Notes under the pieces: model-generated
What the model saw: the letters and a program-made list of their open reading frames with translations, nothing else
What the model was told of the DNA's origin: nothing
Database searches by the model: none
DNA from: Chloroflexi bacterium OHK40
Lineage (GTDB): Bacteria; Chloroflexota; Chloroflexia; Chloroflexales; Chloroflexaceae
Assembly: GCA_004367505.1 (NCBI GenBank)
Contig: SFCB01000062.1
Coordinates: 1 to 57,569, forward strand
Reading direction: 5' to 3'
Length of the DNA: 57,569 nt
In this document: in pieces, positions 35,190 to 47,186 of the stretch
Layout: the number at the start of each line of letters is the position of its first letter
Numbering within the stretch: position 1 is the stretch's first letter
Translations under genes and position numbers: made by a program

Positions 35190-36023
35190 CTACAGGTACT
35201 CCCGCTGATTCACCCGCCGGCGCCACTCCTCGCGGATCTCCACCGGGGTGCCCTGGGAGACGAGGAAATCGAGCAGAAGCCGGGAGAAGGTATTCGACTG
35301 TTCGAGGAAGGGGAAGTGGTTGGCCTTCGGCAGCACCAGCAGCTGGGCCGACCGCTCCCCGGGATCGTTGAGGAAGCCGGCGTGGTCGGCGTTGACGATC
35401 TTGTCCTGTCCGCCGTACACGGCCAGCAGCGGCACTTTTAGCTCCTGCACAGCCGGCCGCAGGTCGGCCTCGAGGATGGAGTCCTGCACGCTGTTGAGCA
35501 CCTGCTCCGAGAGGCCATCGGTGTCCTCGTAGAGCTCCTGCTGCACCTCCGGATCAGCGATCGGAATGCTGCGCAGCAGCCGGGCCCATGCATTGGTATG
35601 GTTCCCGCCAAACAGCTTGGAGAAGGTGCCGGGCTTGATATGGCCAGCCAGCACCTGACCGTACATCGGCGTAGCCACCGTCATCACCTTGAGCACGCGC
35701 TCGGGCCGCTCATGGGCGGTGCGGATGGCGACCATCCCGCCCATGCCGTGGCCGACGAGGTTGGCTACCGGCATGCCCATCTGGTCCATAAAGCGGCAGA
35801 GCATTTCCACGTAGCCGCTGATCGAGAAGCCCGTACCACGGCGGTCGCTCTCACCGTAGCCCCAGAAATCCAGGGCGTAGGCGCGGTAGCGCTCCGAGGC
35901 AAGGTCCATCGTTGGCACCCAGTACCGCCACGAGCCGAGCCAGCTATGGAGGAAGATGATCGGCTGGCCGCGGCCGAAGACCTCGTAGTGCACCAGCCGG
36001 TTGTCCAGGTGGGTTGCGCTCAC
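35190..36023 (-). CDS. Alpha/beta hydrolase-fold protein lacking the nucleophile serine
   Basis: A 277-residue alpha/beta hydrolase. The fold is intact: oxyanion-region FLHSWLGSWRYW (24-35), AYALDFWGYGESD (49-60), acid Asp207 in VYGGQDKIV and His236 in LPKANHFPF. The nucleophile elbow, normally G-x-S-x-G, reads GHGMGG, with Gly93 at the serine position (codon GGC). That should abolish ordinary ester hydrolysis. The GTG start at 36023 overlaps the histidine kinase stop by four bases (GTGA), with GAGGAG just upstream, so it is translated with the kinase. Alpha/beta hydrolases act as sensors in RsbQ-RsbP and in plant hormone receptors; a ligand-binding partner of the kinase is my inference. A non-hydrolytic enzyme remains possible. 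Confidence 0.9.
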   Translation of the reverse strand: MSATHLDNRLVHYEVFGRGQPIIFLHSWLGSWRYWVPTMDLASERYRAYALDFWGYGESDRRGTGFSISGYVEMLCRFMDQMGMPVANLVGHGMGGMVAIRTAHERPERVLKVMTVATPMYGQVLAGHIKPGTFSKLFGGNHTNAWARLLRSIPIADPEVQQELYEDTDGLSEQVLNSVQDSILEADLRPAVQELKVPLLAVYGGQDKIVNADHAGFLNDPGERSAQLLVLPKANHFPFLEQSNTFSRLLLDFLVSQGTPVEIREEWRRRVNQREYL

Positions 36024-39000
36024 TCAGTCTCCTCGTCCACGTCGTTCGTCTCGTGCTGCTCCAGCGGCAGGATGAAGCTGAAGGTACTGCCTCTGCCTTG
36101 CTCGCTCTGCACCCACATCTCGCCGCCGTGCATCTCTACGAACTGCTTGGCGATCGCCAGGCCGAGCCCGGTGCCACCCGCTACATCGCGCAGGGGGTTG
36201 TCGGCGCGGTAGAAGGGCCGGAAGAGCTTCTTCTGCTGCTCCCGCGTCATCCCCACGCCGTTGTCCTCCACGTCTACCTGGAGCATGCTGGCGCGGTTGA
36301 GGTAGGCCCGCACGTGGATGCGCCCGCCCTCATAGGTGTATTTTACGGCGTTTGTGAACAAATTCTGAAACACCTGGGTAATGCGCTTCTGGTCGGCCAT
36401 CACGGCCGGCAGGTCCGGTGCGGTCTCTACCACTACCTGCATGGCCTTCGCCTCATACTCGAAGCGGAGCGACTGCACCACTTCATTGATCACGGCAGGC
36501 ATCTCGACAGGTGAGAAGGTAAGCTTCTTCTTGCTGTCGGGCCGCGCGAAGTCCAGAATATCCTCGATCAGGGAGCGCAGGCGGTTGGTATTGCTCTTGA
36601 TGATCTGCAGATAGCTCACCTGGTCGCTGGTCATGTGCTGGGTGCCGCTGAGGAGGAGCACATCCACATAGCCTTTGACCGCCGTCAGGGGCGTGCGGAG
36701 TTCGTGGCTCACGTCGGAGATGAACTGGCGCTTGGCGTGATCGGCCTCGATCTCGCGGGTGATATCGCGCAGCACGGCCACCTCGCCGTAGCGCTGGCCG
36801 TCGGGGCCAACCACCTGGGCCAGGTTCACGTTGATCACCTGGGTCGGCTCTGTCAGATCCAGAGTGGTAGAGTACTGCTGGCCCAGGCGCACCTGGCGCA
36901 GGCCGTTCACCAGGCCGTTATAGACCACCTGGGCCCGCCGGCGCGCTGAGTCGTCGGCGCCGAACTGCTCCAGCACACTGAGGGGCTTGCCGGTCATCGC
37001 CTCGGCGGGGATCTCGAGCACGTGTTCGGCGGCGGGGTTAAAGAGCAGGATGGTCCGGTCGGTGTCGAGCACGATCACGCCCTCGGTCACCGACTGGAGC
37101 ACAGCAGCGCTCTTGGACGTCTCCTCGCGCTGCTGTTCGAGCAGCACGGCGTTGGTACCGGCGAGGTCGTTGATGTAACTGTAGAGCTGGGCATTGGAGA
37201 CCGCCGCCGCCACCACGCTGGCGATCGTGCCGAGCAGGTTCATCTGCGAGTCGGTAAAGTAGGCCACCTCTGGGCTGGAGAGCACCAGCACGCCGAGGGC
37301 CGCATCGCTCGTCTTCAGGGGCACGGCGGCCACCGAGCGTACGTCGTCGGCGCGGCCGGGCTCTTTGATCCAGCGCTCATCGTCGAGCACGTCGGGGATG
37401 TTCACTGGCTCCTGGTGCTGCATCACCCAGCTGGCCAGGCTCTCGCCACCGTCGAAGTGGAGAGGAATACTGGCCGCCCGCACGTCGCCACGGTCGTAGA
37501 GCACGGCCCGACACACCAGATCGCCGTTCGCCGGGTCGCGCAGCATGATCGAGCCACGGGCGACACCGAGGTTGAGCGAGATCAGCTCCAGTGCCCGCCT
37601 GATGATCCCGGTGAGGTCGAGCTGGGTCGTGAGCTCCAGGGTAATGTTATGCACCGCTTCGAGGCGATCCTTCTCCTCGGAGAGCTGGCGGCCGGCCTGC
37701 TCGAGCTCGGCGGTGCGCTCACTCACACGGCGCTCCAGGTCGGCGGCCAGGTTGGAGATCTGGTCGAAGAGCCGGGCGTTCTGAATGGCCTGGCTCGCCT
37801 GGTTGGCGAGGGCGAAGGTCACCTCGACGGCGTCGGCGTCGTAGGCACCCGGCACCTCGGCACCGATGGCGAGGATGCCCACCAGTTCATTATCTACGAG
37901 CAAGGGCGCGCCGATCCAGGCCCGGGCCCGCCAGCCGAGCTCCAGAATCGGCGCGAAGCGCTCATCGTGCAGGGCGTCCTCCAGCAACACGGGCTGGCGC
38001 TCCAGCGCCAGGGTCTGCAGGAGCGGGTTCGCCTCAACATCGAAGTCGGCCCGCAGGAGACGCTGGTCGCTCAGGCCGCGCGCCTCGGTGATCTGCAGAT
38101 GGCCGTAGCCGGCGTCGCGGAGCAGCACAGCGGCGCTATCATAGCTCACCACCCGTTCGAGCTGGTCGAGGATGAGCGTCTGGATCTCGCGCAGCGCCAG
38201 GGTGGAGGTAAACGACTGGGCAACATCGCGGAGGGTGTCGGCCAGCAGGCGGCGTTGCTGCTCCAGATGGTAGAGCTGGGCGCTCTTGAAGGCCTGGCTC
38301 GCCTGGTTGGCCAGAATGGAGATCAGCGAGATCTGATGGGCGCTCCACTCGTGGGGGTGGCGGAAGCCTACCCAGAGGGCGCCGAGGCGCTCATCGTTGG
38401 AGCCGATGGCAATGCCGAGCGCGCTGCGCACGCCGAAGGCGATGGCGTCGGGGTTGGCGCCGGGGATCTGGTGCAGATCGGTGATGGCCAGCGGCTGGCC
38501 GCTCTCGAGCAGGCGGCTGGTCATCCCGTCGAGGCGGAAGCTGATCGCCAGATCCTCACGGGGCTCGCCGGCCTCCATCAGCACCTGCTGCTCGATGCGG
38601 CCCAGACGGTCCAGCCGGAGCACCGCGCAGAGCTCGGCGCCAAGCAGGCGCAGGGCGGCGTCGGCCACGAGTTGCTGGGTCTTGTCGGGCTCGAGGGTGC
38701 CGGCGAGATCCTGAGTCACGCCGAAGAGCGTCGTCATCTCGGCCGCGTTCTGGCGGGTCTCGCTGAAGAGCCGCGCGTTATTCAGCGCCACGGCCGCCTG
38801 ATTGGCCACCGTCGTGAGGAACCGCAGGTCGTTCTGGTCGAAGGCGTTGCGCTCATAGCTCTGGATGTTGATCACCCCGAGCACCGTCTGGCGGAAGAGC
38901 AAGGGGGCGACCAGGAACGACTCCTCGGTCTGGTCGCTCGCTCCAACCCGGCCGCTGTCGATATCGAGGCCCATCGCCCGGGCCTCATCGGCGCTGCGCA

Positions 39001-42000
39001 GGAGCAAAGGCTGGTGGGTACGGATCACCCAGCCATTCGTACCCTCGGGGAGGGGTCGGGCGGCGAGGTTGATGCGCCGGCCCCGGTCGTAGGCCAGGGG
39101 GTAGCTGAGCGTATTGCTTGCCTCATCGTAGAGGGCGAGCAGCGACGTGCTGACATCGATCACCTCGCCGATGCCCTGGTGGAGCGCCTCGACCAGTGCT
39201 TGCAGATCGAAGGTGGCGCTGACGGCCGCGCTGATCTTGTTGATCGTCGAGAGCTCGTTGATCCGCTGCTCGCGCTCCTCGAAGAGCCGGGCATTCTCCA
39301 GCGCCGTGGCCGCCTGGTCGGCGAGCCCGGCGAGCAGGGCCCGGTCGTCCTCGGTGAAGTGGCGCAGGTAGTTGGTCATCACGCTGAGCACGCCGATGAT
39401 CTGCTCGCGGTAGATCACAGGCACGCCCATGAAGGAGACCAGGTTGTTGTCGCGCTGGTAGGAGGGGTAGAGTGAGCCGCCGTCGGCGTTCACATCGTTG
39501 ATGATCGAGGCCTGGCCCGTGGCAGCAACCCGGCCAGTGAGGCCCTGGCCCACGGGCACGCGCATGGTCCGGCCACGCTCGGCGGGGATGCCATCGAGGG
39601 CGGCGGGCACCAGGATGTTGTCTTCGGTGATCGTCCAGAGGGCCACGGTGGTCACATCGAGCTGGCGGCTCACCAGCTCCATGAGCTTGTCGAGCACCTC
39701 CTGGGGGCGAAGCAGCGAGGAGAGGATGCGGGCGGCATCGAGCAGCGTCGTCTGCTCGCGCACCTTCTGCCGCAGACGGTTCTCGCTGGTCTGGGCGGCA
39801 GCGAAGGCCTGGGCGCGGGCGATCGCGGTGCTCGTCTGGCTGGCGATCGTCTGGCAGAGGGCGAGGGCCTGGGGCTGGAAGGTGCCCCGGCGGCCCACAA
39901 AGTCCAGGCCAACGGCGCCGATCACCTCGGCGTCGATCAGCAGGGGGATGAGCGCGATCGAGCGAATATCGAGCTCGCGGAAGGTCTGGTGGGAGAGTAC
40001 GAAGAGCGGATGCGTCTGGGCGTCCTCGGCCACCAGGGGCTGCTTGTGCTCGTCGAGCCAATCAACCGAGGGGCTGTTGGCGATCGGCACCTGGATCTGG
40101 TCGAGGATCCCGCTGGGCACGTGTTCGGCCACGGCAGGAGCCACGCCACGCGCCCGGTCATAGATCACCAGGCGGGCCTGGTCCACGCCTGTCGCGTCGG
40201 CCATGGCGTCGACGATGATCTGGTAGATGCGCTGCACGTCAGTCTCGGCACTGGCCTGCACCGAGACGCGGTTGAGCAGGGCGAGTTGCTCGACCTGCTC
40301 GCGGGCGGTGGCGAGCAGGCGGGCGTTCTGCACACCCAGGGCGAGCTGGTTGGCTACGGTGGTCATGAAGGCCAGCTCGCGCTCGCCGTACAGGTCGGGC
40401 GTATAGCTCATCACGGCCATCACGCCTACCACGCTGCCATCGCCGACGAGCAGCGGCACGCCGAGCCACGAGGCCGACTCGCGGTCACTCCCGAACCTGA
40501 CGGGCTGGAATCCGGCGGTGCGGTACTCCTTGCTCAGATCGCTGAAGCGCAGGTGGCGCCGTGTGCGAATGATCTGGGCGGTGAGGCTACTGGGGGCGGG
40601 GTGGCGGATGGAATGGTCGATCTCCTGGAAATCGCCGTCTACCTCAAAGGAGAGCACGATCTCATTCTCGGCCTCCTGGTAGACGAAGATGTAGAAGGAG
40701 TCCAGGGGGAGAAAGGTACAGAGCTGCTCATAGGTGCGCCGCAGCATGAGCTCGAGGTCGAGGGTGGAGCTGGTGATCTGGCCCACCCGGTTGATAATAT
40801 TGAGCTCGTTGATGCGCCGCTCGCGCTCCCGGAACAGGGTTGCCCGTTCCATGGCAATGGCGAGCTGGTTGGCGAGGGCGGCGAGGAACTGCCGGTCGCG
40901 CTCAGTGAAGACGTTGGGCGCGAAGTCCTGCACGCTGAGCACCCCGATCACGCGCCCCTGGCTGATCAGCGGTACCCCGATCCACGAGCGTACCTGGTCG
41001 GCGTTGTCGGCGTAGGTAATGGCCAGATCGTGGAGCTTCGGGTCGGCGGCAAGATCCGGCATGAGCAGTGACTGGCCGCTGTCGATAATCAGGCCGGTAA
41101 GGCCGCCCTTGGGGGCAACCAGCTTGTGAGCGCTGGGGAGCAGTTCGCCCTGGCGCATAAAGAGCTCGAAGCGCACCTGCTCGGTATCGGGGCGGTAGCT
41201 GGCAATGTAGAAGAAGCTGGGCGTCCCGAGGTAGGCGACGATCTCCTGGTAGACCCGCTCAAGCAGGGTGTCAAGGTCGTTGGTGGAGGTCGAGGCAGTG
41301 CCAACCTGGTAAAGGGCGGCCATCTGTTCGGCGCGGGCGCGGGCATCGCGGAGCAGGGCGTAGTTTTCAATGGCGATCGCGGCCTGGTCGGCGAAGATCT
41401 CGAGCGGCTCAACAGTGCGGGCGCTGGGCCGCTGGCGGTCCTGGGGGTCGCCGACGAACATCATGCCGAGGAGGGCGCCCTCGGTGGCGTAGAGCGGCAC
41501 GCAGAGGCGGTCGCCGGGCTGCCACTCGCCGGGGGCTCGCGCATCGGTCGAGGGGCTATAGCTAAAGACGGCCGTGTCGAAGCCCTGCTCGAACTGCTGG
41601 GCCTCCTCGGCGGGCACGAAGTAGCAGCGCCCGATCCGGAAGCGCGGGTCGAGGTAGCTGGTGGCGAGGGCGGCGGGCAGGGGCGCGTGGGCCATGCGGT
41701 CCATCTCGCTGAGCGGGATGCCGGCAGCCGAGACGGGCCGCAGCAGATCGGGGCGATCCTGGTCGGTGAGGCAGAAGAGCACCGTCCGGAAGTTCGCGCT
41801 CTCCATCGCGCTATAGCCAACCTGTTCGAGCAAGTTCTCGAGGTTCCGGTCGGCGCGGAGGGCCTGGCCGATCTCCAGCACGTTATTGAGGATCTGGGCG
41901 CGGCTCTTGTGGATGCGGTAGAGGTGTTCGAGCTCGGCGTAGCGCTGGGCGTTGCCAATACCAACGGCGGCCTGATGGGTGAGGGCGCGCAGGAACTCGA

Positions 42001-44467
42001 TTGCGTCGTAGTCGAAGGCGTGCGGGCGTAGTGCGAGCAGGAGCAGCACCCCGTAGACCCCAGCCTGGTAGAAGATCGGCACCGCGAGGGCGGAGCGCGC
42101 CTCGGTGCTGTGCAGGGCGGCCTGCTCAGCGGGTGGCAACTCGTCGCTCAGTTCGGGCTCACGCCGTTCGAGGGCCAGGAAGGCCGTTGTGGCAGACGGG
42201 GCCAGCGTGGCGCCGAGCATTGCCGAGCGGTGCGGCTCGGGGAAGCCAACCGCCTCAACCACCACGTAGGTGGGGTGGTTCGCCTCGGCTTCACCGAGGA
42301 TGCGGCGGGAGAGGTCGGGAACAGGCTGACCCCCGAGGGCGCCGAGGGCCTCCTGGCCGGCGGAGGGGTCATCGGCGGAGCGGAGGGCGATCATCCCCTG
42401 GCTGGCGCCGGTGGCGCGCAGCGCCTGCTCGAGCACATACTCCAGGATCTCTTTCTGGTCGAGCGTGATGGCGAGTTGGCTGGAGACGCGCTGGAGGGCG
42501 CGCAGCTGCTCGATGCGGGCGCGAAGGCTGGCGTCGGTCTGCCCGTAGCGGGTGGCATTGGCGATCGCCTGGGCCGACTGGCCGGCGACGATGCTGAGCA
42601 GGCGGGCGTCATCGTCGCTGAAGGCGTTGGGCCGGGCCGCGCAGAGTTCGAGCGTACCGAGCAGCTCATCACCACGGTGGAGGGGCACGCCGAGGTAGGC
42701 GCGCGCGGGGATGCCATCATGGAGGAGCAGGCCGCTGAGATCGCCGAGCTCGCTGAGCTGGGGGGGCGGCTGCTGAAGGTCGGCGATGCGCAGGGGGCGC
42801 TGGTGACGTACGATCCAATCGGTCAGGGCGGGCGCAGCCTGGGCGGGGGGCCGTAGGCCCTGCTGGGCGCCGAGGCGCACGGTGCGGGTACGGGCATCGT
42901 AGAGCGCAACGCGGGCACCGCTGAAGCGCAGCGCGCGGGCGCCGGCGAGGATGGCGTCGAGCGTCTCATCGAGGCCGAGATCGGCATTGAGGCGCTGGCT
43001 GATGCGGTGGAGGAGCTCGAGCTCGGCGGCGCGTTGCTGCTCAGCCTGGTAGAGCCGACGGTTCAGGATAGCGGTGGCCACCTGTGCCGCGAGAACCTGG
43101 GCAAGGTTGCGCTCGGAGGGGCTAACGGGCCGGCGGGGGCGGGCGTAGCCGATTGCCAGCAGGCCGAGAGTCTGGTCCTTGCCGCGGAGGGGCAGGACGA
43201 GCGCACTGCGGCAGCCATCGTCGGCCAGGGCGGCGGCGAGGGCGTTCTGGGTGGCCACCGCCGACGTATCCTCGATCAGCAGGGGGTCGCCGCGCCCGAG
43301 TTGGGCGATCAGGGCGCTGGCTCCGGGGAGCGCGGGCTCGGGCGAGCCGCCGGGGCGGGCACCGAAGCGGGCGCTATGTGCCGGCTCGACATAGGTGGCG
43401 ACGCTTCGGAGCACCTCGGGGCCATGCTCATCGAGCAGGAAGACGGCGCAGTATTCAGCCGCGAGGGCCAGGGCGATATTCTCAGTGGCCCGGTTGAGCA
43501 TATTCTCAACCAGGGTCGTCGTGGTGATCTCCTGGCTATTCTCATAGAGCACGAACAGCTCGCGGGCCCGCTGCTGCTGCTGGCTGAAGAGTTGAGCATT
43601 GCGGGTGAGGAGTGCCACCTGCTCGGCGAACACTGCGATCAGGCGCTGCTGGCGTCCAGAGGGGCCGGTCCACCCATCAGTGGGGGCCGGGCCCGTGGGC
43701 AGCACGAGCACGAGTACGCCGATCAGGAGCTCCTGGGCGATCAGCGGCAGCGCGAGCGCCGGGTGCTCGCCGGTGGGTGTGGAGGTGCCCCGTCGGCGAC
43801 TCTGGCTGGGGGCCAGGTTGCCAACCTGCGAGGTCCGTGTCGCGACCGCCTGCGCGGGCAAGCTGGATCCGGCCAGCGGTAGCCCGGCCGGGAAGAGGAA
43901 GCCGACATCGCTTGCGGCAAGGAGGGTGAGCTGGCCTTCGGACTCCTCGGGCGTATAGATCGCTGCCGCGACCACGCCAACCAGGGGTGCGGCCCGGGTA
44001 AGCATCGCGGCGAGGAGCGTGCGGGTTTCGAGCACCCCCACCAGCTCCAGGTTGGTGGCTACGAGCGAGCGGATCTGCTCAGCGATCGTGGCCTCTTCCG
44101 CACGGCGGCGGGTAAGCAGGAGCAGCGCCAGCTGGGCGGCGAGGGCGGCGGCGAACGGTGGATCGAGACTGCTGGCGCCGCCAGGGCTTCCCAGGGCGAG
44201 GCGGCCGATCAGCTCACCCTCGGCCCGGAGCGAGAGTGGCGCCGGGTCATCGACGGCATCGCCCCAGGCGGCCACGGCCACCGGCTCACCCTCCTCCAGG
44301 AGTTCAAGGCGCCCGGCCGGAGCGGGCAGGTAGCGCGCCACCAGGCCAGCCAGTTTCTCGGCGCAGTGGGCGGCGTCATAGCTCTCGGCGCCATCCTGGG
44401 CACACTGCGCGAGCTGGGCCAGAAGTTCCCAGCCAGAGGTAGAGGTCGGGGCGATCGTCGTATCCAT
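36020..44467 (-). CDS. Giant sensor histidine kinase with 13 GAF domains and a PAS domain
   Basis: A 2,815-residue cytoplasmic protein. After an N-terminal region of about 130 residues I count 13 successive GAF-type units, each opening with a helix like LLNRVS or INKISA and closing with a helix like LANQASQAIQNARLF. The units are separated by short helical linkers of 15-25 residues. A longer coiled coil (DLERRVSERTAELEQAGRQL) lies before the 13th GAF. Then come a PAS domain (VLQSVTEGVIVLDTDRTILL), HisKA (DVSHELRTP, phosphoacceptor about His2588), and HATPase_c with N (NLFTNAVKY), G1 (DNGVGM) and G2 (GGTGLGLAI) boxes. No transmembrane segment is seen. No GAF shows an obvious bilin-binding cysteine set. 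The ATG at 44467 is preferred; an in-frame TTG at 44491 is possible. A serine-less hydrolase is coupled downstream, and a REC-GGDEF-like regulator lies upstream. Confidence 0.92.
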   Translation of the reverse strand: MDTTIAPTSTSGWELLAQLAQCAQDGAESYDAAHCAEKLAGLVARYLPAPAGRLELLEEGEPVAVAAWGDAVDDPAPLSLRAEGELIGRLALGSPGGASSLDPPFAAALAAQLALLLLTRRRAEEATIAEQIRSLVATNLELVGVLETRTLLAAMLTRAAPLVGVVAAAIYTPEESEGQLTLLAASDVGFLFPAGLPLAGSSLPAQAVATRTSQVGNLAPSQSRRRGTSTPTGEHPALALPLIAQELLIGVLVLVLPTGPAPTDGWTGPSGRQQRLIAVFAEQVALLTRNAQLFSQQQQRARELFVLYENSQEITTTTLVENMLNRATENIALALAAEYCAVFLLDEHGPEVLRSVATYVEPAHSARFGARPGGSPEPALPGASALIAQLGRGDPLLIEDTSAVATQNALAAALADDGCRSALVLPLRGKDQTLGLLAIGYARPRRPVSPSERNLAQVLAAQVATAILNRRLYQAEQQRAAELELLHRISQRLNADLGLDETLDAILAGARALRFSGARVALYDARTRTVRLGAQQGLRPPAQAAPALTDWIVRHQRPLRIADLQQPPPQLSELGDLSGLLLHDGIPARAYLGVPLHRGDELLGTLELCAARPNAFSDDDARLLSIVAGQSAQAIANATRYGQTDASLRARIEQLRALQRVSSQLAITLDQKEILEYVLEQALRATGASQGMIALRSADDPSAGQEALGALGGQPVPDLSRRILGEAEANHPTYVVVEAVGFPEPHRSAMLGATLAPSATTAFLALERREPELSDELPPAEQAALHSTEARSALAVPIFYQAGVYGVLLLLALRPHAFDYDAIEFLRALTHQAAVGIGNAQRYAELEHLYRIHKSRAQILNNVLEIGQALRADRNLENLLEQVGYSAMESANFRTVLFCLTDQDRPDLLRPVSAAGIPLSEMDRMAHAPLPAALATSYLDPRFRIGRCYFVPAEEAQQFEQGFDTAVFSYSPSTDARAPGEWQPGDRLCVPLYATEGALLGMMFVGDPQDRQRPSARTVEPLEIFADQAAIAIENYALLRDARARAEQMAALYQVGTASTSTNDLDTLLERVYQEIVAYLGTPSFFYIASYRPDTEQVRFELFMRQGELLPSAHKLVAPKGGLTGLIIDSGQSLLMPDLAADPKLHDLAITYADNADQVRSWIGVPLISQGRVIGVLSVQDFAPNVFTERDRQFLAALANQLAIAMERATLFRERERRINELNIINRVGQITSSTLDLELMLRRTYEQLCTFLPLDSFYIFVYQEAENEIVLSFEVDGDFQEIDHSIRHPAPSSLTAQIIRTRRHLRFSDLSKEYRTAGFQPVRFGSDRESASWLGVPLLVGDGSVVGVMAVMSYTPDLYGERELAFMTTVANQLALGVQNARLLATAREQVEQLALLNRVSVQASAETDVQRIYQIIVDAMADATGVDQARLVIYDRARGVAPAVAEHVPSGILDQIQVPIANSPSVDWLDEHKQPLVAEDAQTHPLFVLSHQTFRELDIRSIALIPLLIDAEVIGAVGLDFVGRRGTFQPQALALCQTIASQTSTAIARAQAFAAAQTSENRLRQKVREQTTLLDAARILSSLLRPQEVLDKLMELVSRQLDVTTVALWTITEDNILVPAALDGIPAERGRTMRVPVGQGLTGRVAATGQASIINDVNADGGSLYPSYQRDNNLVSFMGVPVIYREQIIGVLSVMTNYLRHFTEDDRALLAGLADQAATALENARLFEEREQRINELSTINKISAAVSATFDLQALVEALHQGIGEVIDVSTSLLALYDEASNTLSYPLAYDRGRRINLAARPLPEGTNGWVIRTHQPLLLRSADEARAMGLDIDSGRVGASDQTEESFLVAPLLFRQTVLGVINIQSYERNAFDQNDLRFLTTVANQAAVALNNARLFSETRQNAAEMTTLFGVTQDLAGTLEPDKTQQLVADAALRLLGAELCAVLRLDRLGRIEQQVLMEAGEPREDLAISFRLDGMTSRLLESGQPLAITDLHQIPGANPDAIAFGVRSALGIAIGSNDERLGALWVGFRHPHEWSAHQISLISILANQASQAFKSAQLYHLEQQRRLLADTLRDVAQSFTSTLALREIQTLILDQLERVVSYDSAAVLLRDAGYGHLQITEARGLSDQRLLRADFDVEANPLLQTLALERQPVLLEDALHDERFAPILELGWRARAWIGAPLLVDNELVGILAIGAEVPGAYDADAVEVTFALANQASQAIQNARLFDQISNLAADLERRVSERTAELEQAGRQLSEEKDRLEAVHNITLELTTQLDLTGIIRRALELISLNLGVARGSIMLRDPANGDLVCRAVLYDRGDVRAASIPLHFDGGESLASWVMQHQEPVNIPDVLDDERWIKEPGRADDVRSVAAVPLKTSDAALGVLVLSSPEVAYFTDSQMNLLGTIASVVAAAVSNAQLYSYINDLAGTNAVLLEQQREETSKSAAVLQSVTEGVIVLDTDRTILLFNPAAEHVLEIPAEAMTGKPLSVLEQFGADDSARRRAQVVYNGLVNGLRQVRLGQQYSTTLDLTEPTQVINVNLAQVVGPDGQRYGEVAVLRDITREIEADHAKRQFISDVSHELRTPLTAVKGYVDVLLLSGTQHMTSDQVSYLQIIKSNTNRLRSLIEDILDFARPDSKKKLTFSPVEMPAVINEVVQSLRFEYEAKAMQVVVETAPDLPAVMADQKRITQVFQNLFTNAVKYTYEGGRIHVRAYLNRASMLQVDVEDNGVGMTREQQKKLFRPFYRADNPLRDVAGGTGLGLAIAKQFVEMHGGEMWVQSEQGRGSTFSFILPLEQHETNDVDEETE

Positions 44468-44615
44468 AGGGCCTACGGGCCGCTCCTGCAAGGGCGTATG
44501 CTGGCAGTATCGGGGCGGAGCGTGTCATCGAACGACACGGCGGGGCATCGCACGCTGAGCCCGCTAGTATAAACGGGGTTACGGCCTGTTTCGGGTGGGG
44601 GAGGTGCCACAGACA

Positions 44616-44679: not shown

Positions 44680-45630
44680 CTATTTCCGGTTGCGGCCGTA
44701 GGCCACGGCGCTCTTACGGCCCTGCTCTCGGGCCTGGTGGACGGCGCGCTGGCGGGCTTCTTCGGCCGTCTCACTCAGTTCCCGAATGTCGTAAAAGGGA
44801 CCATCGTTGCTGGTCAGCACGCCGATAGAGATCGACATCAAGGGTACGGGGCGCAGCTCACCCTTCTCGTCCGGCACCTCGATGAATCCCTGGCGGCGAT
44901 GTTTGAAGTTGTAATGGAGGCCGATCTCATCATCGAAACGGGCGAGCAGGCGCTCGCAGATCGGCCGGATGCGCTCAGGCGCCGAGGTGATCACAAAATC
45001 AGGGCCAACCACCATATGGCCGATGAACTCCTCGGTACCACCCTGCTCATTGATCGCCTCGTTGAGCAGGAGGGCGGTGAATTTGAGCACATCTTCGCCG
45101 ACTACCGAGCCATAGCTCTGGGTGAAGGTCTCGAAGCCATTGATGTGGATGAGGGCCATCGCCCAGCCCTGGGTCGAGAGCAGGGAGCGCAACTGATCGT
45201 TAATCAGCTCGGCGGTAGGGAGGTTCGTCACCGGGTGGAGTTGGTTCTTGCGGCGGGCCTCTTCCAGCTGATTGCGAACGATCGTATGCACCTCTTCGAT
45301 ATCGAAGGGCTTCACGATATAGTACTGCGCCTGCACCTCGCCGAGGCCGCGCAGGCGGTCGGTGCGCTCGCCGCGGGCAGTGAGGAAGATGATCGGGATA
45401 TGGCGGGTGCGGGGGCTGGCCCGCAGCGCCTTGCCGATCTCGTAACCCTCCATATCGGGGAGGTTCACGTCGAGCAGGGCGAGGTTCGGGGGCGTCTTGC
45501 TGCAGATCTCCAGGGCCGTAGCGCCGCGCATCGCGGTAAAAACCTCGTAGCCCTGGGAGGTGAAGTAGATCTTCAGCAGACTGGAGATATCGGCCTGGTC
45601 CTCCACGACCAGAATGCGCTCTTTACTCAC
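44680..45630 (-). CDS. Response regulator with degenerate GGDEF domain
   Basis: A 316-residue protein. The receiver (1-120) is complete: Glu/Asp pocket at VVEDQ, phosphoacceptor Asp54 (LALLDVNLPD), Thr84 and Lys107 (YIVKPFD). The second half resembles a GGDEF domain (HPVTNLPTAELINDQLRSLL opening, later SISIGVLTSND). The catalytic motif GG(D/E)EF is replaced by VGPDF (in HMVVGPDFVI), so diguanylate cyclase activity is unlikely; it may bind nucleotide or a partner. The GTG start at 45630 overlaps the upstream beta-helix gene by four bases (GTGA). It precedes the 13-GAF kinase on the same strand and is a candidate receiver for it. Confidence 0.88.
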   Translation of the reverse strand: MSKERILVVEDQADISSLLKIYFTSQGYEVFTAMRGATALEICSKTPPNLALLDVNLPDMEGYEIGKALRASPRTRHIPIIFLTARGERTDRLRGLGEVQAQYYIVKPFDIEEVHTIVRNQLEEARRKNQLHPVTNLPTAELINDQLRSLLSTQGWAMALIHINGFETFTQSYGSVVGEDVLKFTALLLNEAINEQGGTEEFIGHMVVGPDFVITSAPERIRPICERLLARFDDEIGLHYNFKHRRQGFIEVPDEKGELRPVPLMSISIGVLTSNDGPFYDIRELSETAEEARQRAVHQAREQGRKSAVAYGRNRK

Positions 45631-47186
45631 CGGTCAATCCTCCTCGCGCTGGCGGACGCGCCGACGGCTGGGCGATCGTAGTTGAGCGAGATGGCGTCTT
45701 CGCCGGGGCCCTCCACGCCGGTCGTGGTGGCGGGGCGGGCGCCGTTGGCAGGAGCGGGCGGATCCTCGGGCGGCGTGATTCGCCGCTCGGCGGGGTCGTC
45801 GTAGACGGTGGGCCAGTGGTACACGATCCGGCGCGGCTCCCCGCTCGCATCGTCGAGATCTTCGAGGTCGTGGCCGGCTACCGTCTTGCGGATCAGGCTC
45901 TTCTCATCATCGAAGATTATAACAGCATTCGACTCAATCATGCGACCAGGGTAGACGACGAAGCCGCTGCCGAGCTTGACATTGTGGCCCACGGCGGAGC
46001 CGAGCACCGGCATATTGACCTCGACTGGTCGTCCGTGGTGCATGACCTTGATCGGCTCGTTCTGAAGGTTAAAGTCGGTGAAGCAGTTGTTGGCGCCGAT
46101 GAAGGTATTGCGGCCAACGACACAGAGTTGCAGGGTGGAGTTCTGGGCCACCATGCTATTCTCCATGAGCGTCGTCATAAACAGGCCGGCGTTAAACGGC
46201 AGGAAGCAGCGATCGCTCACCACGCTGAGCATGATCTGGCTGCCCTGCATCACATTTACGTTGTTGCCGATGATGCTGTTAGCGATGACAACGCCAGGGC
46301 CGATATAGACATCATCCCCGATCACTGTAGGGCCGTGAATGATGGCGGTCGGATCGATCGATGCGCGCTTGCCGACCTTCACGAGGGCGCGGGAGGCGAG
46401 GAAGTGATTGCGCCAGGGATCCTCGAAGGGGTTGAGGCGCTGCCAGATCGCGGCGGCGGAGAAGGCCACCTTGCCCAGGAAGGTGCGCCAATCCTCGGGT
46501 CGCCAGCGGAGGATGTCCTTCAGGCGGGCCTGGCCCATCTTCACGTCCTGGACGGCGGCTTGCGAGAAGACCCCCATGAGCACATTGGCCATGAAGACGT
46601 GGACCCAGTTCTCGACGGAGAGGAAGGCCCGCAGAGGGATCTGGTAGGTCAGGTCGCCCTTGCTCGCCATATAGCTCGGGATATGGTAGTAGCCCATCTC
46701 GTGGCTCTGGGTATCGATCACGAGCGGGGTGGGTTCATCGCGGCGACCGGCGGGGAAGTAGTAGAGCTCGGCCACGAAGAGATCGCCGCGCAGCTCCTCG
46801 CCGTCGCGGATGTAGGCGCTGTCCTCGCGGCGAACAATGCCGGCGCTGAGCTGGGTGGCGTGGCGGGCGATGCTCTGATCGGTCAGGGCGAAGCCGATCT
46901 GTACCGGGCGAGCGGCGCGGCGCGCCTCGCTGATAAAAGCGTCGATCAGCGCGGCGTTGAAGAAGAGATTGTCCCGGTAGACGAGCAGTTCCCGATCGGC
47001 AAGGGGGACGCGCTCCTCCAGTTCATCGATCGAGTCGATCTCACTGCTCCCCTTGCAGTAGCTCTTCAGCAGATCGCGCTGGAGCAGCCAGAGGGGCTTA
47101 TTGAGGATCCGAAGCTCGCGGGCAGGCTCGGCGAAAGGGGGGATTGGGGTGTAGTCTCGGATGATGACTCGCTCGATCCGCTCCAT
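45627..47186 (-). CDS. Left-handed beta-helix protein with nucleotidyltransferase-like N-terminus
   Basis: A 519-residue protein. Residues about 280-440 form a left-handed beta-helix of hexapeptide repeats (ASIDPTAIIHGPTVIGDDVY, then IGPGVVIANSIIGNNVNVM and later GSAVGHNVKLGSGFVV), the fold of acyltransferases and GlmU-type C-termini. The N-terminal 240 residues loosely resemble sugar-1-phosphate nucleotidyltransferase relatives (LNKPLWLLQRDLLKSYC, VYRDNLFFNAALIDAF), but I see no clear nucleotide-binding glycine loop. The last 70 residues are Pro/Ala-rich and look disordered. Two good promoters lie upstream. It is coupled by GTGA to the REC/GGDEF-like gene. The enzymatic activity is unknown; a scaffold or modified-sugar role is possible. 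Confidence 0.75.
   Translation of the reverse strand: MERIERVIIRDYTPIPPFAEPARELRILNKPLWLLQRDLLKSYCKGSSEIDSIDELEERVPLADRELLVYRDNLFFNAALIDAFISEARRAARPVQIGFALTDQSIARHATQLSAGIVRREDSAYIRDGEELRGDLFVAELYYFPAGRRDEPTPLVIDTQSHEMGYYHIPSYMASKGDLTYQIPLRAFLSVENWVHVFMANVLMGVFSQAAVQDVKMGQARLKDILRWRPEDWRTFLGKVAFSAAAIWQRLNPFEDPWRNHFLASRALVKVGKRASIDPTAIIHGPTVIGDDVYIGPGVVIANSIIGNNVNVMQGSQIMLSVVSDRCFLPFNAGLFMTTLMENSMVAQNSTLQLCVVGRNTFIGANNCFTDFNLQNEPIKVMHHGRPVEVNMPVLGSAVGHNVKLGSGFVVYPGRMIESNAVIIFDDEKSLIRKTVAGHDLEDLDDASGEPRRIVYHWPTVYDDPAERRITPPEDPPAPANGARPATTTGVEGPGEDAISLNYDRPAVGASASARRIDR

Follow-up and report, generated by a model that had tools for sequence, protein, structure and literature searches.

The window, the whole 57,569-nucleotide stretch of DNA that was analyzed, carries on its minus strand a gene for an alpha/beta hydrolase-fold protein that overlaps the end of a very long sensor kinase gene. 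We call this protein H2, the kinase-linked type, and its serine-bearing paralogue H1, the serine type. The features of the locus are as follows.

35190..36023, minus strand: H2, serine-less alpha/beta hydrolase-fold protein of 277 aa (PF00561, 9e-24; AlphaFold pLDDT 80, pTM 0.84)
35745..35747, minus strand: GGC codon of Gly93, elbow G-H-G-M-G-G (sequence, relatives)
35943..35945, minus strand: AGC codon of Ser27, oxyanion loop LHSW; Gly in the serine-type paralogue (sequence, relatives)
35403..35405, minus strand: Asp207, acid of the former triad, retained (alignment)
35316..35318, minus strand: His236, retained; 73 of 73 H2 relatives (alignment)
35193..35252, minus strand: C-terminal tail, residues 258-277, ...VEIREEWRRRVNQREYL; W267, R269, and R270 invariant (kept in H2, absent in H1)
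36020..36023, minus strand: GTGA overlap, kinase stop and H2 start (sequence)
36020..44491, minus strand: histidine kinase, 2823 aa, with 12-13 GAF, PAS, HisKA, and HATPase_c domains (Pfam, relatives)
44680..45630, minus strand: response regulator with a degenerate GGDEF-like domain (VVGPDF), conserved upstream of the kinase (Pfam, relatives)
45627..47186, minus strand: HEX, hexapeptide-repeat (left-handed beta-helix) protein of the same cluster, sharing 4 bases with the response regulator

The H2 ORF opens with GTG and its product contains NLVGHGMGGMVAI; the alpha/beta hydrolase fold is indicated both by the Pfam match to Abhydrolase_1 and by the structural model. An earlier note, made from the letters of the window, had described a nucleophile elbow reading GHGMGG instead of GHSMGG, with Asp207 and His236 kept, and a GTGA overlap with the stop of a 13-GAF kinase. 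Translation of the ORF and an alignment of 33 rows (A1) bore this out: D207 (GGQDKIV) and H236 (ANHFPFLE) are invariant in A1, the elbow codon on the minus strand is GGC, the last 4 kinase bases are the start of H2, and Pfam places 12-13 GAF matches in the kinase. The elbow offers no Ser, Cys, or Asp nucleophile, since Gly93 is found in the window and in all orthologues of the class (Chloroflexia) examined except one, L142, to which we return below. The oxyanion loop also differs between the two types, being LHSW (Ser27) in H2 of the class versus LHGW in H1.

The sole PAS match of the kinase (residues 2463-2577) lies beside HisKA, after the GAF array, and the phospho-acceptor box VSHELRTPL is intact (FISDVSHELRTPL). 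The TTG start of the kinase ORF may be too early, as relatives suggest an ATG at residue 9 (44467), and the long ORFs that face the kinase on the plus strand (e.g., 37022-39475) were regarded as antisense frames of GC-rich DNA. In the response regulator, the GGDEF motif is gone (VVGPDF); outside the class, the same motif is mostly GGDNF or GGDDF. It is a second degenerate enzyme within the H2 cluster.

A genome search found matches in 59 of the 61 genomes of the family and order, and carriers include Oscillochloris, Chloroflexus, Chloroploca, Viridilinea, Roseiflexus, Kouleothrix, and Herpetosiphon. All 40 class loci that were fetched with flanks had the GH-G-[ML]GG elbow, the LHSW loop, the Asp, and the His, and all 40 had, upstream and in the same orientation, the ORF of a multi-GAF kinase, which in a few of them is truncated where the contig ends or broken by frameshifts; the 4-base overlap of kinase and H2 recurs in 27 of these 40 relatives. 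Across 41 sequences, the window included, the elbow Gly is encoded by GGC (19), GGG (10), GGT (6), and GGA (6). Because all 40 relatives have Gly, by all four codons, the Gly elbow is real and not a base-calling error, and the sequencing error at the GGC codon that had to be considered was ruled out. Judged from these relatives, the Gly elbow is a fixed feature of H2 in the class. Pairwise dN/dS values of H2 range from 0.02 to 0.19.

Almost every genome of the class that has H2 also encodes a second relative, H1, at ~40% identity; in the genome from which the window derives, it lies at G000:C284:12414-13193. All 20 H1 loci of the class have a GHSMGG elbow, an LHGW oxyanion loop, and no such kinase adjoining. 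In a tree, H1 and H2 form a group apart from the remaining hydrolases of these genomes (support, 100/100). The sequences thus resolve into two related forms of one ancient alpha/beta hydrolase in the Chloroflexota, the serine-intact H1 and H2. Over all sequences, the elbow residue of H2 is G in 63, D in 6, T in 2, A in 1, and S in 1, while it is S in all 43 H1 sequences; His236 is kept in 73 of 73 H2 sequences and Asp207 in 67. The co-occurrence of a Gly elbow with a multi-GAF kinase, for which the earlier note had proposed an alignment check, was upheld in that 72 of 73 tailed H2 sequences lack the Ser and 43 of 43 H1 sequences have it; assignment to H2 used the tail for loci L188 onward, so that counts of the tail hold partly by construction and those of the elbow do not. 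In many genomes (L071-L090), H1 of the class adjoins PrmC-like, small membrane protein, and ABC/cytochrome c biogenesis-like genes, as named by eye.

To look beyond the class, 350 genomes of the phylum were searched for the hydrolases and the matched places were fetched. H2 lies behind the same kinase in about 24 genomes of other families, most of which have H1 in the same cluster. The order in most of them is a DUF4388 protein, a small Ras-like GTPase, H1, a V4R-domain protein, a hexapeptide protein, a response regulator, the kinase (about 1650-2600 aa), CheY, and H2. Here H2 keeps the tail, ending in EEWKRRVR or similar; the elbow position holds Gly, Asp, Ala, or Thr, and some of these proteins have another residue in place of the acid. 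The idea that Asp took over as a nucleophile of the dehalogenase type was considered and rejected, since elbow Asp occurs in one sub-clade outside the class only, where most of the sequences that have it have replaced the acid too. The DUF4388 protein, Ras/MglA-like GTPase, and V4R protein of these clusters (L188-L203 and L213; e.g., L201:1436-5548) recall the actinobacterial conservons. At one locus (L208; G341:C1 660881 and 661768), two tail motifs lie ~890 bases apart on one strand, possibly representing tandem H2 copies. Of the 350 phylum genomes, 61 have HEX, and these are the 61 that have the H1/H2 hydrolases; within 158 class genomes HEX was found in 67 and the hydrolases in 69, counts that are inflated by shared descent. 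One genus of the order (g21 in family f4; G039, G058, and G073-G081) lacks H1, H2, and HEX together, which suggests loss of the system as a unit.

H2 ends in a C-terminal extension, ...VEIKEEWRRRVNQREYL, in which W267, R269, R270, and Q273 are invariant in A1; the invariant tail of H2 includes EIKEEWRRRV. The tail is absent from H1, the C-terminus of which is an unrelated and variable sequence. The possibility that the tail is common to other proteins of the genome was ruled out, because a DNA pattern matching the tail is present at a single place in the organism's own genome, inside H2; in a 400-genome sample of the phylum, most matches to the tail pattern fall within H2 genes. The window H2 thus combines the two features of the Chloroflexota H2 group, a tail of the [EK]W[KR]RR type and an adjoining multi-GAF kinase.

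To compare constraint in the two types, column entropies were determined for H1 and H2 sequences paired by genome (18 pairs from the class, 17 from outside it). Entropy was higher in H2 than in H1 in the cap (+0.53 bits in the class and +0.81 outside), in the strand after the elbow (+0.86 and +0.91 bits), and in the acid loop (+0.88 bits in the class; +0.77 outside, P = 0.08), and it rose to a lesser extent in the remaining protein (+0.21 and +0.52 bits). The oxyanion and His loops displayed no significant change between H2 and H1 in either set of pairs. The tail, in contrast, had far lower entropy in H2 (-1.78 bits in the class); outside the class, 12 tail columns exist only in H2, with a mean entropy of 0.31 bits. 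Positions fixed in H2 and not in H1 lie mainly in the last helix and tail (R248, L249, D252, K/R264, W267, R269, and R270), while those fixed in H1 and free in H2 include 93, 94, 96, 100, 117, 122, 124, 125, 129, 130, 210, 212, and 214. With its catalytic machinery relaxed and its last helix and tail fixed, H2 has therefore had its conservation moved to one edge. The earlier view that only the nucleophile was lost needs correction: in the class, Gly27 of the oxyanion loop became Ser; the cap and acid loop relaxed, 6 of 73 H2 sequences have another residue in place of the acid, and a tail was gained.

A homologue that keeps the serine beside the same kinase, which the earlier note had named as evidence against its proposal, does occur, once or perhaps twice. 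L142:10001-10846 (the same place as L216:11410-12258), from the Chloroflexia bin Zod_Metabat.323, retains the Ser (GHSLGG) together with the tail and the kinase, and in L218 a serine-intact, tail-less hydrolase adjoins a related kinase. Either could reflect an early state, and L142 is possibly an evolutionary intermediate. A single H2 clade including L142 was not rejected (p-AU, 0.34; 0.50 without L142), in a tree that fixes neither its base nor the position of L142. Since L142 has the tail, the kinase, and the Ser, linkage to the kinase may precede serine loss. In the simplest story that these sequences suggest, kinase association and the tail would have come first, and the serine would have been lost later, once or more than once.

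The AlphaFold model of H2 matched hydrolases in a structural search at Z scores of about 30. The plant receptors D14/KAI2 followed at Z of 27 to 28, and RsbQ (1wom) ranked 44th (Z, 27.6; rmsd, 2.8; 246 residues aligned; 16% identity). An AlphaFold model was also made of the kinase C-terminus fused to H2, the input being a natural in-frame kinase-H2 read-through of L141 with its TAA read as Gly; built from unpaired rows, it reached a pTM of 0.39 with a disordered tail (pLDDT, about 43).

The kinase adjacency kept across much of the phylum and the new tail together argue that H2 is probably the kinase's non-catalytic input or adaptor subunit. We consider it reasonably probable that H2 is a pseudoenzyme serving as an accessory subunit of the adjacent multi-GAF histidine kinase. 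Read from the alignments, H2 is a protein that lost its nucleophile, relaxed its cap and acid loop, fixed a tail, and stayed in a conserved signaling cluster. Translational coupling, as suggested by the observed overlap, would make H2 together with the kinase, and the tail and last helix would dock it there. The former pocket, with its oxyanion loop and invariant His, could bind a small molecule unhydrolyzed, or H2 could act as a mere rigid surface; in either case, occupancy or binding would alter kinase autophosphorylation and hence the response regulator. The serine-intact H1 may have this ligand, or one related to it, as its target. Several observations sit uneasily with a non-catalytic subunit. 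Retention of His236 in 73 of 73 and of Asp207 in 67 of 73 relatives goes beyond the needs of a purely structural role, L142 keeps its Ser with the tail beside the kinase, the fused model has a low pTM and a tail under pLDDT 50, and adjacency and co-occurrence partly reflect shared inheritance.

The earlier note had proposed a "ligand-binding sensor or adaptor." A non-catalytic, kinase-tied role fits the evidence, but ligand sensing is no better favored than docking, and its "small-molecule input module" overstates the case, since the strongest H2-specific conservation lies in the tail and last helix and points at least equally to docking. The special case of the accessory-subunit reading in which H2 is mainly a small-molecule receptor, its serine-less pocket reporting a ligand to GAF or PAS domains, deserves separate consideration, and we regard it as rather doubtful. 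The oxyanion and His loops are as conserved in the class as they are in H1, D207 and H236 are invariant in A1, and the fold matches the ligand receptors D14/KAI2 and RsbQ, among many enzymes; binding without catalysis has been proposed as possibly sufficient in RsbQ (Model 2, PMC3183031). The conserved pocket floor in the class would thus favor some binding role, while the broad relaxation of the cap, the usual lid of the pocket, argues against one that is tightly specific. Outside the class, moreover, the elbow varies (G, D, A, or T) and some sequences have lost the acid, and signaling requires the triad in both RsbQ (PMC3183031) and DAD2 (PMC3531792).

It is unlikely, on present evidence, that H2 acts mainly on the response regulator, CheY, or the hexapeptide protein and not on the kinase. 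The genes for these proteins are equally conserved in the cluster, CheY lies between the kinase and H2 in many lineages, and the fused kinase model lent no support to an interface; against this, most of the window's family has H2 coupled straight to the kinase gene, with no CheY between them. That H2 is still an enzyme, working through a displaced residue (Ser27 next to the oxyanion position or chemistry of His236/Asp207), appears quite improbable. His236 is universal in H2, and Ser replaces Gly at position 27 in 44 of 73 H2 sequences, including every class orthologue with Gly93, by AGC or AGT codons only in those counted. However, most H2 sequences outside the class lack Ser27 (Gly in 26 and Asp in 3), conservation of the cap and acid loop fell, and the dehalogenase-like elbow Asp is mostly accompanied by replacement of the acid; Ser27 as a migrated nucleophile was rejected, as it is not universal in H2. 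Finally, we give very little credence to H2 as a decaying paralogue riding along in the operon, because the degenerate catalytic residues of some lineages are outweighed by the low dN/dS, the fixed tail, the presence of an orthologue in almost all genomes of the order, and adjacency conserved over the phylum.

Whether hydrolysis or mere binding carries the signal is disputed for both RsbQ and the plant receptors D14/KAI2. For the RsbQ-RsbP PAS module, 45 pairs of hydrolase and PAS have been described, with phosphatases, kinases, and cyclases as their outputs (Nadezhdin et al. 2011, PMC3183031). The triad is conserved there and needed, and that paper did not decide between a model of catalysis and one of mere binding. 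RsbQ resembles H2 in being a cytosolic alpha/beta hydrolase of the same fold encoded beside a sensor, which in some bacteria is a histidine kinase. It differs in keeping and needing Ser96-Asp219-His247, where H2 has Gly at the Ser96 equivalent; in gene order, as RsbQ lies immediately upstream of a sensor with an N-terminal RsbP-type PAS and H2 lies downstream; in its contact, which is with the most N-terminal PAS, while the kinase of H2 is GAF-rich with one PAS beside HisKA; and in having no counterpart of the H2 tail. The parallel with RsbQ/RsbP drawn by the earlier note thus holds for a functional analogue and not for membership in one family, given the structural rank and 16% identity, and the best reading by analogy may be that H2 works like an RsbQ-PAS system in a "binding without catalysis" mode, outside the RsbQ family.

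Other systems share single aspects. D14, DAD2, and KAI2 have the alpha/beta hydrolase structure of H2 and are signal receptors that bind a partner protein; unlike H2, they have an intact triad, needed for DAD2 signaling (PMC3531792), and F-box partners. NDRG, neuroligin, and thyroglobulin use dead hydrolase folds for protein interactions (PMC7022630) and, like H2, have catalytic residues replaced, but they are eukaryotic and have no link to two-component kinases, whereas H2 mostly keeps Asp and His and has a serine-intact twin. No Ndr model was among the Pfam matches of H2, in which Asp and His are retained versus all three residues replaced in NDRG. CvnF8, an operon-encoded accessory protein as proposed for H2, attaches to CvnA8, a histidine kinase of Streptomyces, and raises the autophosphorylation of this kinase; a Ras-like GTPase belongs to the same system (PMC13343842). 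The account consulted mentions no hydrolase fold, and the kinases that such accessory proteins accompany there are without sensory domains, versus 12-13 GAF domains in the kinase of H2. The literature searched, with most subscription papers outside its scope, describes neither a Chloroflexi hydrolase-GAF kinase pair nor this signaling cluster. By its sequence, H2 with its kinase would be a hydrolase-fold partner of a sensor protein, a kind known previously, in a serine-less version that appears new.

The loss of the nucleophile from a protein kept beside its kinase over the depth of a phylum, with H1 as a built-in control, makes the question of binding versus hydrolysis directly testable. A tentative extension of the accessory-subunit reading is a phylum-wide pair in which H1 makes or destroys a ligand and H2, tethered to the kinase by its tail, senses the same ligand unhydrolyzed; this is possible, if speculative, and nature would then offer an example of a hydrolase fold that perceives a signal independently of catalysis, the option not settled for RsbQ. 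As a possible input subunit of multi-GAF kinases, H2 comes with a defined motif that may serve in docking, and it points to a conserved signaling cluster in the Chloroflexota.
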